Assembly: GCA_947627235.1 (NCBI GenBank)
Contig: CANQVG010000001.1
Location: forward strand, 62,001-126,000
Origin: an uncultured Clostridia bacterium
GTDB taxonomy: Bacteria; Bacillota; Clostridia; Oscillospirales; Ruminococcaceae
Reading direction: 5' to 3'
DNA: 64,000 nucleotides
The notes beneath the pieces were generated by a model that was not told the origin of the DNA, ran no database searches, and saw only the letters and a program-made list of their open reading frames with translations. Each line of letters starts with the position of its first letter. The stretch's first letter is position 1. Of this stretch, positions 34,247 to 38,805 are shown piece after piece. The position numbers and the translations under genes were made by a program.

Positions 34247-35523
34247 GCGGATACGGAGTTATAATTGTCGGCGGAGGAGCTGCCGGTCTTTTTGCGGCTG
34301 CAAACGTCCGTACAGATAAAAGGATTCTTATAATCGAGCCTAACAGAGTTTTGGGCAGAAAGCTTCGAATAACCGGCAAAGGTCGGTGCAATCTTACAAA
34401 CAACTGTTCGCCGGATGAGGTTCTGAAAAACGTCTTGAGAAATCCGAAATTTTTGTACAGTGTTGTTTCGGAATTTCCGCCCTATAGCATTATTGATTGG
34501 TTTGAGAACAGGGGAGTGCCGCTTAAAACAGAGCGAGGCAGGAGGGTATTTCCCCAGAGCGACAGGGCGGAGGATATTGCCGAGGCGCTTATAAGTGAGT
34601 GCAGGAGAAACGGCGCTGATTTTGTTAAATCAAAGGCGGACGGGATTATCGTATGCGACGGAGCTGTAAAAGGCGTGAGATGCGGAGAAAAAGAGTATTT
34701 TTCTGACTGTGTGTTGTTGGCGACAGGCGGGAAATCCTATCCGCGCACGGGGTCGGACGGTAGCGGCTATTCGCTCGCCGAGGCAGTCGGGCATACAGTA
34801 ACCGCCTTGCAGCCTTCACTTGTGCCGATTGAGATTGAAGATAGCATTTGCGCGGCTCTTTCGGGGCTGACGCTGAAAAATGTAGTGCTCAGGCTTCACG
34901 ACACACAAAAACCCACAAAGCCGCTTTATTCCGAACTTGGCGAAGTGACTTTCACGCCGGTCGGCATCGGCGGACCTCTCGGAATTTCGGCGTCTTGTTA
35001 TATTGATGAGAATAAGCTCAGATGTAAAGGCTATAAGCTTGTCATAGATTTAAAGCCTGCGCTTTCAGCTGAACAGCTTGACGCAAGGCTTCAGAGGGAC
35101 ATTAAAGCCGCTCCGCAGTTGCCGTTTGAAAAACTGCTCGCTGGGCTTATGCCGAGTGCTATGGCAAAGCCGTTTTCGGATAGGCTTGAATTTGTAAAAC
35201 CCGCGTCAATAGGCAATTTGACGCGCGAGCAGCGCCGAATGACAGTAGAGCTTCTGAAAAACTTTGCGCTCACTCCGAGGGTTCTTCGCGGCTTTGACGA
35301 GGCCATAGTTACACGCGGAGGGGTATCGGTAAAGGAAGTATTTCCATCGACGATGGAATCAAAGCTTGTAAAGGGATTATACTTTGCAGGCGAAATTATC
35401 GACTGCGACGCTTTTACGGGCGGTTACAATCTTACCATTGCCTTTTCGACCGCCTATGCGGCGGCGTCGGATATATCAAAGAAAATTCAGAATCAAGAAA
35501 GGGAAGCTGAAAAATGGGATTAA
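34243..35523 (+). CDS. HI0933-family FAD flavoprotein (YhiN-like)
   Basis: A 426-residue FAD-binding oxidoreductase of the HI0933/YhiN family. The dinucleotide-binding motif is IIVGGGAAGLFAAA (about 6-19); GKGRCNLTN (about 46), ATGGKSYPRTGSDGSGY (about 160) and the C-terminal GEIIDCDAFTGGYNL are diagnostic. The reaction is unknown. The GTG start at 34243 lies in the end of the rpiR gene, with GGCGGAG as ribosome binding site. It overlaps cmk-plsC by ten bases. Confidence 0.92.
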   Translation: MSGYGVIIVGGGAAGLFAAANVRTDKRILIIEPNRVLGRKLRITGKGRCNLTNNCSPDEVLKNVLRNPKFLYSVVSEFPPYSIIDWFENRGVPLKTERGRRVFPQSDRAEDIAEALISECRRNGADFVKSKADGIIVCDGAVKGVRCGEKEYFSDCVLLATGGKSYPRTGSDGSGYSLAEAVGHTVTALQPSLVPIEIEDSICAALSGLTLKNVVLRLHDTQKPTKPLYSELGEVTFTPVGIGGPLGISASCYIDENKLRCKGYKLVIDLKPALSAEQLDARLQRDIKAAPQLPFEKLLAGLMPSAMAKPFSDRLEFVKPASIGNLTREQRRMTVELLKNFALTPRVLRGFDEAIVTRGGVSVKEVFPSTMESKLVKGLYFAGEIIDCDAFTGGYNLTIAFSTAYAAASDISKKIQNQEREAEKWD

Positions 35524-36815
35524 ACTGCGCTATTGACGGTCCGAGCGGCGCCGGAAAGTCTACCATCGCAAAGGAACTTGCCCGCAGGCTCGGATTTGTA
35601 TATGTCGACACGGGCGCGCTTTACCGTTCAATCGGTTATTACGTCGTATCAAAGGGAGCTAAAACATCATCTGCCGAGGAGGTCGTGCCGCTTCTCGGAG
35701 ATATCAGCATCGAGCTTAAATATGTCGACGGCGTTCAGCGCGTGATTCTAAACGGCGAGGACGTCTCGGACAAAATAAGAACACCGGAGATTTCTATGGC
35801 GGCGTCAAACGTCTCCGCGATTCCCGAAGTACGGGATTTTCTTCTCAATCTCCAGAGAGACATCGCCGGAAAGAACGACATAATAATGGACGGCAGGGAC
35901 ATCGGCACAGTCATTCTACCGAGCGCTGAGGTAAAGGTTTTTCTGACCGCTTCTGCAGAGGAAAGGGCGCGCCGCAGGTTTGAGGAGCTTAAGGACAAGG
36001 GTCAGAACGTTGTGTATGAAGACGTTCTAAATGATATAAATCAGCGCGACTATAACGACTCACATCGCGAAACCGCGCCTCTTAAAAAGGCTGACGACGC
36101 TGTCGAGCTTGACACTACCTCAATGACGGTAGACGAGGTGGTCGGAAGTATAGAAAAGCTCATCATCGAAGCGCAGCGCGAGGAATCCGTTCCGTTCAAA
36201 AAAATTCCCGCCTTTCGCAGATGGCTGTTTGCAATCCCGAGATTTATTGTGAGGGTAGGATTTTCAATAGTTTTCAATCTCAAATATGAGGGAACCGAAA
36301 ATCTTCCGGATCACGGCTCGGTGATACTCGCCGGAAACCACAGGACATGGTTCGACCCGGTTCTTATCGCAATCCGTGTAAAATATATCTCGGCATATAT
36401 GGCGAAAGCTGAGCTTTTTGACCATTTTCCGCTGAATGTCATAATCAGAGCTGTGCATGGCTTCCCGACAAGGCGCAACAGCGCCGATGTTTCTGCCCTT
36501 ACTCGCGCTGAAGAGGCAATTAGAAAAGGTTACAATCTGACTATCTTCCCCGAGGGAACCCGCTCCAAGGACGGCAAGATAGGCAGAGCAAAGAGCGGTG
36601 TTGCATTTATCGCATCAAAGTGCGGAGTGCCTGTGTATCCGGTCGGAATTTCCTTTAAGAGCAAGCTTCATTTTCGCTCAAAAATCACCGTTCGTTTCGG
36701 CAAACCGATTTCTCCCGAGGAGCTTCATATAAATTCTATGTCCAAGACCGATTTAAGAGCTGCTGGCGAGCTGATAATGTCGAATATCGCGGGGCTGGTG
36801 GATAGCGATGCCTAA
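35514..36815 (+). CDS. cmk: Fused cytidylate kinase / PlsC acyltransferase
   Basis: A 433-residue two-domain protein. Residues 1 to about 222 are a complete CMP/dCMP kinase (P-loop DGPSGAGKST at 8-17, DTGALYR, MDGRDIGT, R-rich lid). Residues about 225-433 are a 1-acylglycerol-3-phosphate acyltransferase: NHRTWFD (the NHX4D motif, about 274), then FPTRR and FPEGTRS (about 344). The frame is continuous, with no stop or internal ribosome binding site at the junction. In many Clostridia cmk and plsC are separate neighbours before ispH-rpsA, so this is a fusion of adjacent genes. The first part makes CDP; the second makes phosphatidic acid. Confidence 0.93.
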   Translation: MGLNCAIDGPSGAGKSTIAKELARRLGFVYVDTGALYRSIGYYVVSKGAKTSSAEEVVPLLGDISIELKYVDGVQRVILNGEDVSDKIRTPEISMAASNVSAIPEVRDFLLNLQRDIAGKNDIIMDGRDIGTVILPSAEVKVFLTASAEERARRRFEELKDKGQNVVYEDVLNDINQRDYNDSHRETAPLKKADDAVELDTTSMTVDEVVGSIEKLIIEAQREESVPFKKIPAFRRWLFAIPRFIVRVGFSIVFNLKYEGTENLPDHGSVILAGNHRTWFDPVLIAIRVKYISAYMAKAELFDHFPLNVIIRAVHGFPTRRNSADVSALTRAEEAIRKGYNLTIFPEGTRSKDGKIGRAKSGVAFIASKCGVPVYPVGISFKSKLHFRSKITVRFGKPISPEELHINSMSKTDLRAAGELIMSNIAGLVDSDA

Positions 36816-38805
36816 AGTAACTGTCGCTAAGACCGCAGGTTTCTGTTTCGGAGTCGACAGGGCGGTAAAGCTTGCGTATGAGGCAGCGGGAAGATATGAT
36901 AACGTTCTTACGCTCGGACCGATAATTCATAATCCGGACGTCGTGGGCGACCTCGAAAAGCACGGTGTGAGGGTTATAGAAAACCTTGACGGCGTCACGG
37001 CCAAGGATACGGTGATAATCCGCTCTCACGGCGTAGGTCCCGACGTTTATGCGAAGCTGCTTGAAATAGGCGCGAGGGTAGTAGACGCCACATGTCCTTA
37101 TGTTAAAAAGATTCATCAGATAGTGTCGGAGCGTTCAAAGGCCGGAGATTTGATACTGATTGCGGGCGACGAAACCCATCCTGAGGTCAGAGGAATAGTA
37201 GGATATGCCTCAGGAGAGTATCATGTCTTTGCCGACGCTGACGAGATGATGAAACTTATAAGAAAAAACTGTGAAAATTCAAAAAAAAGTGTTGCAATTC
37301 TTTCGCAAACCACTTATAATATTAAACTGTGGGAGAATTGTAAATCCCTTGTAAAGGATATGCCGGGCGTGACGGTTTACAACACCGTCTGTGCGGCAAC
37401 CTCCAAAAGGCAGTCCGAGGCTATGGAGCTTTCCTCTCAAAACGATGTCATGATTATCGTAGGCGGGTGTAACAGCTCAAACACCAAAAAGCTGTATGAT
37501 ATATGCAGTCAAAACGCCGAGTGTCATCTCGTGGAGAATGCCGAGGGTCTGAAAGATATAGATTTTTCCCATATAAGATCCGCTGGGATCTCTGCCGGCG
37601 CGTCAACTCCGGCGTATATTATTAAGGAGGTACAAAATACCATGACTGAAATTCTGACAAAGGAAGAGGAGTTCAACTTCGAGGAAGCGATTGAGCAGAC
37701 CTTCAAGAAAATATATACCGGAAAGAGAGTAAGCGGCATCGTCACTGCGGTCAACCCCACTGAAGTTATAGTCGATATCGGAACCAAGCAAACCGGATAT
37801 ATTCCTCAGGCAGAACTTTCTTCCGATCCGAACGTAAAGCCTTCCGACGTTGTATCTGTGGGCGACGAGATTGACGTTATCGTCACCAAAATCAACGACG
37901 TTGAAGGAATAGTTTACCTCTCCAAGAAGCAGGTAGACGCACAAAAAGGCTACGACGAGGTTAAAAAAGCCGCTGAGGATGGCACCGCCGTTTCGGGCGT
38001 TGTCACCAATGTCATAAAGGGCGGAGTTATCGTAGTCGTAGAGGGTATGAGAGTCTTCGTCCCCGCATCGCAGACCGGCGTAAGAGCTGACGTCAGCCTT
38101 GATACGCTTTTAAAGCAGACCGTTAACCTCAAGATAATCGAGCTCAACGAGCAGCGCAAGCGCGCCGTCGGTTCGATTCGCAAGGTCGCTGCGGAGGAGA
38201 GAGCTGCAAAGCGCGCTGCGTTCTTCGAGAATGCCGTTATCGGCTCCACAGTCGAGGGCGAGGTTAAGTCAATCACCGACTACGGCGTATTTGTCGATGT
38301 CGGCGGTGTCGACGGTCTTGTCAGAAAGGCAGACCTCACTTGGGCGAGAATCAAGCACCCGTCCGACGTTGTATCCGTTGGAGACCGCATCGAGGTCACC
38401 ATAAAGGATATCGACCGCGAGACCGGCAAGGTTTCTCTCGTCTACAAGAAGCAGTCCGACAATCCTTGGGACATCTTCCGCAATAACTACGAGCTCGGAC
38501 AAGTCGTTGATGCGACTATTGTGTCCATCACGAGCTTCGGCGCTTTTGCGCAGATAATTCCCGGTATCGACGGTCTTATTCACATTTCGCAGATCGCCGA
38601 CCAGAGAGTCAACAATGTTGCTGATTTCCTCACCGTCGGTCAGACCGTTCAGGCGAAGATTACCGAGTGCGATTTTGAAAAGAAGCGCGTCAGCCTCTCA
38701 ATCAGAGCGCTCCTGCCCTCTGCAAATGAAGCTGAGGAAGCAGATGAAGCCGTTGAAGCCGAAGACGCAGCCGAAACCGAATCCACCGAGGAGTCGGCTG
38801 AATAA
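36808..38805 (+). CDS. ispH: Fused IspH (HMBPP reductase) / ribosomal protein S1
   Basis: A 665-residue bifunctional protein known from Clostridia. Residues 1 to about 278 are IspH, the last enzyme of the MEP isoprenoid pathway, with cluster Cys in AGFCFGVDRAV, DATCPYVKK and the VGGCNSSNT block. From residue 279 four S1 RNA-binding domains follow (about 308-377, 392-460, 478-550, 562-634) and an acidic tail. A strong AAGGAGGT (37624-37631) and in-frame ATG (37642, residue 279) sit exactly at the junction, which could yield separate S1. It overlaps cmk-plsC by eight bases and ends at a terminator. Confidence 0.95.
   Translation: MPKVTVAKTAGFCFGVDRAVKLAYEAAGRYDNVLTLGPIIHNPDVVGDLEKHGVRVIENLDGVTAKDTVIIRSHGVGPDVYAKLLEIGARVVDATCPYVKKIHQIVSERSKAGDLILIAGDETHPEVRGIVGYASGEYHVFADADEMMKLIRKNCENSKKSVAILSQTTYNIKLWENCKSLVKDMPGVTVYNTVCAATSKRQSEAMELSSQNDVMIIVGGCNSSNTKKLYDICSQNAECHLVENAEGLKDIDFSHIRSAGISAGASTPAYIIKEVQNTMTEILTKEEEFNFEEAIEQTFKKIYTGKRVSGIVTAVNPTEVIVDIGTKQTGYIPQAELSSDPNVKPSDVVSVGDEIDVIVTKINDVEGIVYLSKKQVDAQKGYDEVKKAAEDGTAVSGVVTNVIKGGVIVVVEGMRVFVPASQTGVRADVSLDTLLKQTVNLKIIELNEQRKRAVGSIRKVAAEERAAKRAAFFENAVIGSTVEGEVKSITDYGVFVDVGGVDGLVRKADLTWARIKHPSDVVSVGDRIEVTIKDIDRETGKVSLVYKKQSDNPWDIFRNNYELGQVVDATIVSITSFGAFAQIIPGIDGLIHISQIADQRVNNVADFLTVGQTVQAKITECDFEKKRVSLSIRALLPSANEAEEADEAVEAEDAAETESTEESAE
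37624..37644 (+). promoter_or_regulatory. Internal ribosome binding site and start at the IspH/S1 junction
   Basis: AAGGAGGT (37624-37631) followed 10 bases later by an in-frame ATG (37642-37644). Initiation here would give a free 387-residue S1 protein beginning MTEILTKEEEFN. Translation of the fusion reads through this region as IKEVQNTM. Whether ribosomes use it is inference. Confidence 0.6.

Follow-up and report, generated by a model that had tools for sequence, protein, structure and literature searches.

How ribosomal protein S1 is supplied when its gene, rpsA, is joined to a gene of metabolism is the question raised by one locus in the window, the 64,000-nucleotide stretch of DNA from an uncultured Clostridia bacterium that we analysed. 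In this locus ispH and rpsA occupy one open reading frame (ORF), and we conclude that they are very probably overlapping genes sharing that frame, with free S1 made from an internal start and an IspH-S1 fusion made from the ispH start (Table 1). Ribosomes starting at the ispH codon would read through the joint and produce the fusion, because no stop lies there. Other ribosomes would bind AAGGAGGT within the last IspH codons, start at the internal ATG and produce free S1. The known "fusion" of these gut bacteria would then be an overlapping gene pair whose two members lie in the same frame.

Table 1. Features of the ispH-rpsA locus, in window coordinates
Feature	Position	Strand	Details
Cytidylate kinase-acyltransferase ORF, upstream	35514..36815	+	8-nt overlap with ispH start
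ispH-rpsA ORF (predicted fusion product)	36808..38805	+	665 aa, 72.1 kDa
IspH part	36808..37641	+	LytB domain match, residues 4-279
Putative internal Shine-Dalgarno sequence, AAGGAGGT	37624..37631	+	core GGAGG at 37626-37630, within codons Lys-Glu-Val
Putative rpsA internal start codon, ATG	37642..37644	+	in the ispH frame
Predicted free ribosomal protein S1	37642..38805	+	387 aa, 42.0 kDa, N-terminus MTEILTKEEEFN

The encoded protein matches NF000907 (PRK00087, bifunctional IspH/S1) with 689 bits against a cut-off of 624, and it runs as one ORF without a stop. Pfam finds S1 domains in four stretches after IspH, and Pfam and NCBIfam agree on the combination of IspH and S1. In the organism's own genome, represented by an assembly that is 97.6% complete, the remaining matches to the IspH-S1 protein are short S1-domain pieces. 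The cytidylate kinase-acyltransferase ORF and ispH-rpsA probably share a common transcript.

A preliminary description of this DNA had placed a Shine-Dalgarno (SD) sequence and an ATG, ten bases apart, at the IspH/S1 joint. Both are present, in the frame of 36808-38805, with 10 nt between AAGGAGGT and the ATG (11 nt when counted from GGAGG). This GGAGG-ATG distance is long, as the 11 other ATG starts with an upstream GGAGG have 5-10 nt in a purely mechanical list of 12 such starts from window ORFs of at least 100 aa. A search of this genome's assembly for the 16S 3' end gave 0 matches, and pairing strengths were therefore calculated with the general anti-SD. By this measure the joint is the strongest pairing site in 36701-38805 (-12.5), with a place at 38254 close behind (-12.3) and the next at -9.6. 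Folding is weak in the 50 nt around the internal ATG (-3.9, against a gene mean of -9.8). Thus, an in-frame start codon with its own SD lies inside a longer ORF, as in a gene within a gene, and the nucleotide-level comparison of relatives described below indicates that the signal is kept beyond coding need. No stop occurs from the joint to 38805. With no ispH stop near the rpsA start, termination-reinitiation cannot operate in the window, and rpsA initiation would probably be independent, taking place between elongating ribosomes.

Junctions for this comparison came from genomes of the window's own family, class and phylum. For family f1, 148 genomes were searched and 142 junction stretches used, leaving out G016, G023 and G070, whose matches miss the joint, and G080, G123 and G146. 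For the class (392 genomes) a subset was chosen to cover families, comprising 28 new loci from the search, 60 further stretches and 60 genomes searched again, of which 54 matched. From the 199 genomes of the phylum 60 were taken, one per family code and selected by family only, and for family f29 60 genomes were searched, 58 matched and all 58 were taken, plus locus L244. The best 120 of 7999 matches in the protein search were close relatives. The 445 loci yielded 432 distinct junctions (356 in frame, 76 not), with ten identical junctions dropped and three loci excluded for having no joint (L046, L047, L288); L222 and L290 were anchored by hand, and L039 and L375, in which S1 is cut short, were counted in frame. 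The in-frame junctions span 121 family codes plus unnamed contigs. Codon positions +9, +10 and +15 are numbered from the G of GASTP.

GGAGG stands at the same two codons, +9 and +10, in 350 of the 356 distinct in-frame junctions: 301 of 302 in the class set and, outside the class, 49 of 54 with one per family. When one gene per family is considered it occurs in 116 of 121, where synonymous codon use within each gene would predict 16.7, and it is present in 55 of 55 genes in which GAG makes up less than 20% of the Glu codons. A codon alignment of 301 genes and 606 columns, from which L373 was excluded as the sole exception then known, has G as the third base of both +9 and +10 in 301/301; the next best column reaches 82% G, and the next best conserved Glu column has one codon in 66%. 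The residue at +9 varies. Ten codons for eight residues occupy this position in the class set (AAG, GAG, AGG, CAG, TTG, ATG, GGG, CGG, TCG and CTG), every one ending in G; in the combined class and phylum sets 354 of the 356 do so.

The start codon is also kept. Codon +15 is ATG in 342 of 356 in-frame junctions, and the 14 exceptions are seven GTG, three TTA, two CTG, one TTG and one GTT. Valine at +15 is encoded by GTG in 7 of 8 cases, though the share of GTG among all Val codons of the eight genes concerned is 9-37%. GTG-coded Val replaces the joint Met in L374 (genome G087), L398, L412, L430, L440 and L442, in which the start codon is thus retained. The residue after +15 is S in 159, E in 64 and T in 60 of the 356, the next residue is E in 272, and the sequence after +15 resembles the MSE... 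N-termini of out-of-frame rpsA genes. Together, these comparisons show the putative internal signal to be under strong selection as nucleotides. The preliminary description had proposed just such a comparison among relatives, and its expectation was borne out, with GGAGG and a start codon kept at the nucleotide level across 121 family codes and no refutation encountered; its reading, that one mRNA may give both the fusion and free S1, gains support from this pattern.

Six of the 356 in-frame genes lack GGAGG. Three have GGGGG there, and the others are L373, L411 and L427. In L224, L230, L268, L408 and L435 an ATG lies one codon before +15, at a spacing of 8 nt. In the f1 locus L373, from a 1.0-Mb genome, GAGG precedes an ATG at +12 by 5 nt, and L411 (f100), with CTG at +15, has AGGAGG and an ATG further down. 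Both have a different SD-like site and ATG close to the joint, which looks like a shift of the start. The in-frame ispH-S1 gene of L427 (f155) has CTG at +15 and no clear internal SD or start. This is a possible fusion-only lineage, and at least one lineage may therefore rely on the fusion alone.

Relatives that hold ispH and rpsA in different frames provide a separate view of the signal. Among the 76 distinct junctions not in frame, rpsA starts inside ispH in another frame in 55, and 53 of these have the same GGAGG: 48 in f29, two in Lachnospiraceae (L043, L044) and one each in f62 (L271), f67 (L295) and f108 (L402), these last three coming from one assembly each, where a sequencing error is possible, as against 48 junctions for f29. 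The overlap of ispH and rpsA in the 53 is 8-46 nt (median 20), with the ispH stop near the rpsA start, and all 53 out-of-frame rpsA starts give S1-like translations, including a GTG start in L402 and a TTG start in L387 (f29). The internal signal would here be the evident start of S1. That rpsA begins at the same signal where the frames differ strengthens the internal-start reading. Family f29 holds both states, with 48 out-of-frame and 10 in-frame junctions and GGAGG in 58 of 58; its out-of-frame ispH genes end 16-28 codons past GASTP, and its rpsA starts lie 9, 10 or, once, 13 nt after GGAGG. In L302 (f75) and L312 (f81) the out-of-frame rpsA start lies 11 and 14 nt before the ispH end. These two loci have other SD-like sites nearer the ispH stop and no GGAGG at the usual place, which is thus not obligatory.

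Trees of IspH plus S1, built by a quick method with SH-aLRT support and midpoint roots (the f29 out-of-frame rows being thinned to 18 in the second tree), place f62 beside the in-frame families f19 and f31 (SH-aLRT 97 and 94 in the two trees), f67 beside in-frame f72 (96 and 94) and f108 beside in-frame f136 (99, second tree), with f29 mixed. At least nine frame changes are needed on these trees, of which six (first tree) or seven (second tree) are forced by starred branches. Because the roots are midpoints, the direction of change rests on parsimony; most changes would have led away from the shared frame, with changes in either direction perhaps occurring in f29.

The 21 junctions not in frame that have no rpsA start inside ispH served as controls, with rpsA further down in eight and no S1 in reach in 13. 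These rows were sorted by where rpsA starts, with the S1 frame assigned blind to SDs and the start codon picked by SD-like sequence, a choice that was not fully blind, and they have GGAGG at the place in 1 of 21 (L318, with a separate AAGGAG site before its rpsA) and ATG at +15 in 1 of 21 (L306).

Signal strength points the same way across families. In 113 of 120 family representatives the pairing of the internal SD beats that of the best candidate ispH start (medians -12.6 versus -8.2), a comparison that is approximate, with the candidate ispH starts picked by position. The SD of the internal start is the strongest of all in-frame ORF start codons in 101 of 121 family representatives, and 115 of 121 have a junction that is folded more weakly than the average of its gene. 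We infer that the internal site is used in this organism and that both proteins accumulate. The SD strengths suggest a ratio of fusion to free S1 in which more S1 than IspH is made from one mRNA, and the joint arrangement may in this way solve a dosage problem.

Other explanations of the motif fare less well against these data. Conservation of the protein might by itself produce it, if [KE]-E-V is kept at the IspH C-terminus together with a methionine, in which case the motif would have no signal function. E-V is indeed common in IspH, and the 17 class junctions that lack both GGAGG and a shared frame include 8 with Glu at +10. However, six of those eight use GAA, and coding need does not account for two adjacent third bases fixed throughout an alignment (L373 excluded), for a codon +9 that ends in G while its residue varies, or for the single GGAGG and single ATG among the junctions where rpsA does not start inside ispH. 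The fixed third bases, the family-level excess and the 21-junction control refute this explanation, whose probability we put at practically nil. We also think it extremely improbable that free S1 is cut from the fusion protein, the internal site being a relic. We found no support for such cleavage; the variable linker after the M could hold a cleavage site. In a relic, synonymous sites would have decayed as the 121 families diverged, yet no such decay is seen. SD-like sequences within genes have been proposed to pause ribosomes, and the internal SD, which lies at a domain joint, might slow elongating ribosomes so that IspH folds before S1, with the ATG unused. But pausing needs no start codon, and here +15 is nearly always ATG and is GTG in half of the 14 exceptions; the same SD also serves an out-of-frame rpsA start in four families (f29, f62, f67, f108). 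We therefore judge pausing very unlikely as the explanation of the site, and a ribosome pause at the internal SD may occur as a side effect.

The place of the fusion itself is less clear-cut. If ispH and rpsA are overlapping genes and the internal start is used, the fusion could still be a tolerated by-product without a function of its own. Lineages without the fusion exist, as in the out-of-frame f29 junctions, and truncated IspH without S1 was active in vitro in the portions of PMC4746011 that concern the enzyme. In contrast, junctions in the sampled families other than f29 are by a wide margin mostly in frame (54 of 60 in the phylum set), a pattern suggestive of selection for the fusion or of infrequent change. 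We regard the tolerated by-product as plausible, at somewhat less than an even chance. That a shared frame predominates in these families even though out-of-frame versions exist suggests some value of the fusion itself, and this is the least certain part of our account. Extending the overlapping-gene reading to the phylum, we see a prospect only a shade below even that, in most sampled families, the start of S1 translation is concealed within ispH and not carried by a stand-alone gene; that the in-frame state is itself selected; that one mRNA gives a large pool of free S1 and a small pool of ribosome-bindable IspH-S1; and that the SD-start distance (9, 10 or 11 nt) acts as an evolutionary switch turning the fusion on or off with S1 supply untouched.

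The fusion was already known, as the preliminary description had it. Rao et al. 2015 (PMC4746011), in the portions dealing with it, describe IspH-RPS1 as having four and in few cases six S1 repeats and as occurring in anaerobes, mostly Firmicutes, with Fusobacteria named among the carriers and no other ispH or rps1 gene in organisms with the fusion. A 46-kDa protein co-purifying with the Clostridium thermocellum fusion in Escherichia coli was there identified as Rho (69% coverage), and we make no case for its being S1. The gene studied here is of the same kind, IspH followed by S1 repeats, with an NF000907 match above the cut-off. The difference lies in the reading: that article treats one polypeptide, whereas we propose two overlapping genes with an S1 start of its own, and the terms internal, Shine and start codon are absent from its main text.

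In-frame internal starts that give a separate C-terminal protein are described for the rpn toxin-antitoxin genes in the relevant passages of PMC10327210, where mutations of the ribosome-binding site and start abolish the short product, including that of a Gram-positive gene cloned in E. coli. The short form in rpn genes is a small antitoxin, whereas the short product predicted here is a complete ribosomal protein whose gene is joined to that of a metabolic enzyme and, in relatives, overlaps it out of frame. Translationally coupled gene pairs, as outlined in part of PMC6728339, resemble the present case in that the SD of the second gene sits within the 3' end of the first. Their plain form is found in f29, f62, f67 and f108, whereas in the window ispH does not end near the point where rpsA would begin. 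None of the literature matches listed, which came mostly from outside subscription journals, reported an internal start in ispH-rpsA, and a term search of PMC4102724 and PMC6495232 found nothing on it in the text that was reached. The fusion and internal starts giving C-terminal proteins were known separately, and none of the literature matches listed joins the two.

IspH-S1 was proposed as a "Rosetta stone" fusion, with the functional link left open in the pertinent passages of PMC4746011. Should most S1 be made in free form, a joint function would not have to follow from the fusion, a second product would need to be added to the annotation of ispH-rpsA, and how much of a ribosomal protein is made would hang on a site within a different gene. 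With their separate, out-of-frame overlapping and in-frame overlapping genes, the relatives form a natural series for the origin and loss of a fusion.

Some further observations concern the locus and its relatives. A predicted tryptic peptide of the fusion product is EVQNTMTEILTK, whereas that of free S1 would be (M)TEILTK, probably lacking the Met since the next residue is Thr. The upstream ORF at 35514-36815 encodes a 433-aa protein with cytidylate kinase at residues 6-216 and an acyltransferase domain at 256-380. An in-frame scan of this ORF found SD-like sequence before start codons at 35685, 35796 and 36633, and no such start between the two domains. In L304 (genome G388, f71), classed as not in frame, IspH is joined to cytidylate-kinase-like sequence, named by eye, in one 512-aa ORF; the joint has neither GGAGG nor ATG, and an S1 start with a GGGAGG site lies 176 nt past the ORF stop. 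Marked stops inside matches were considered as a sign of unfused genes and rejected: of the loci examined then, L176 and L039 alone have a stop no more than 300 codons from the joint. L176 (genome G056) is a separate ispH/rpsA pair in f1, a family otherwise mostly in frame; its ispH ends in TAA, and the ATG of its rpsA follows 3 nt later, after AAGGAG.
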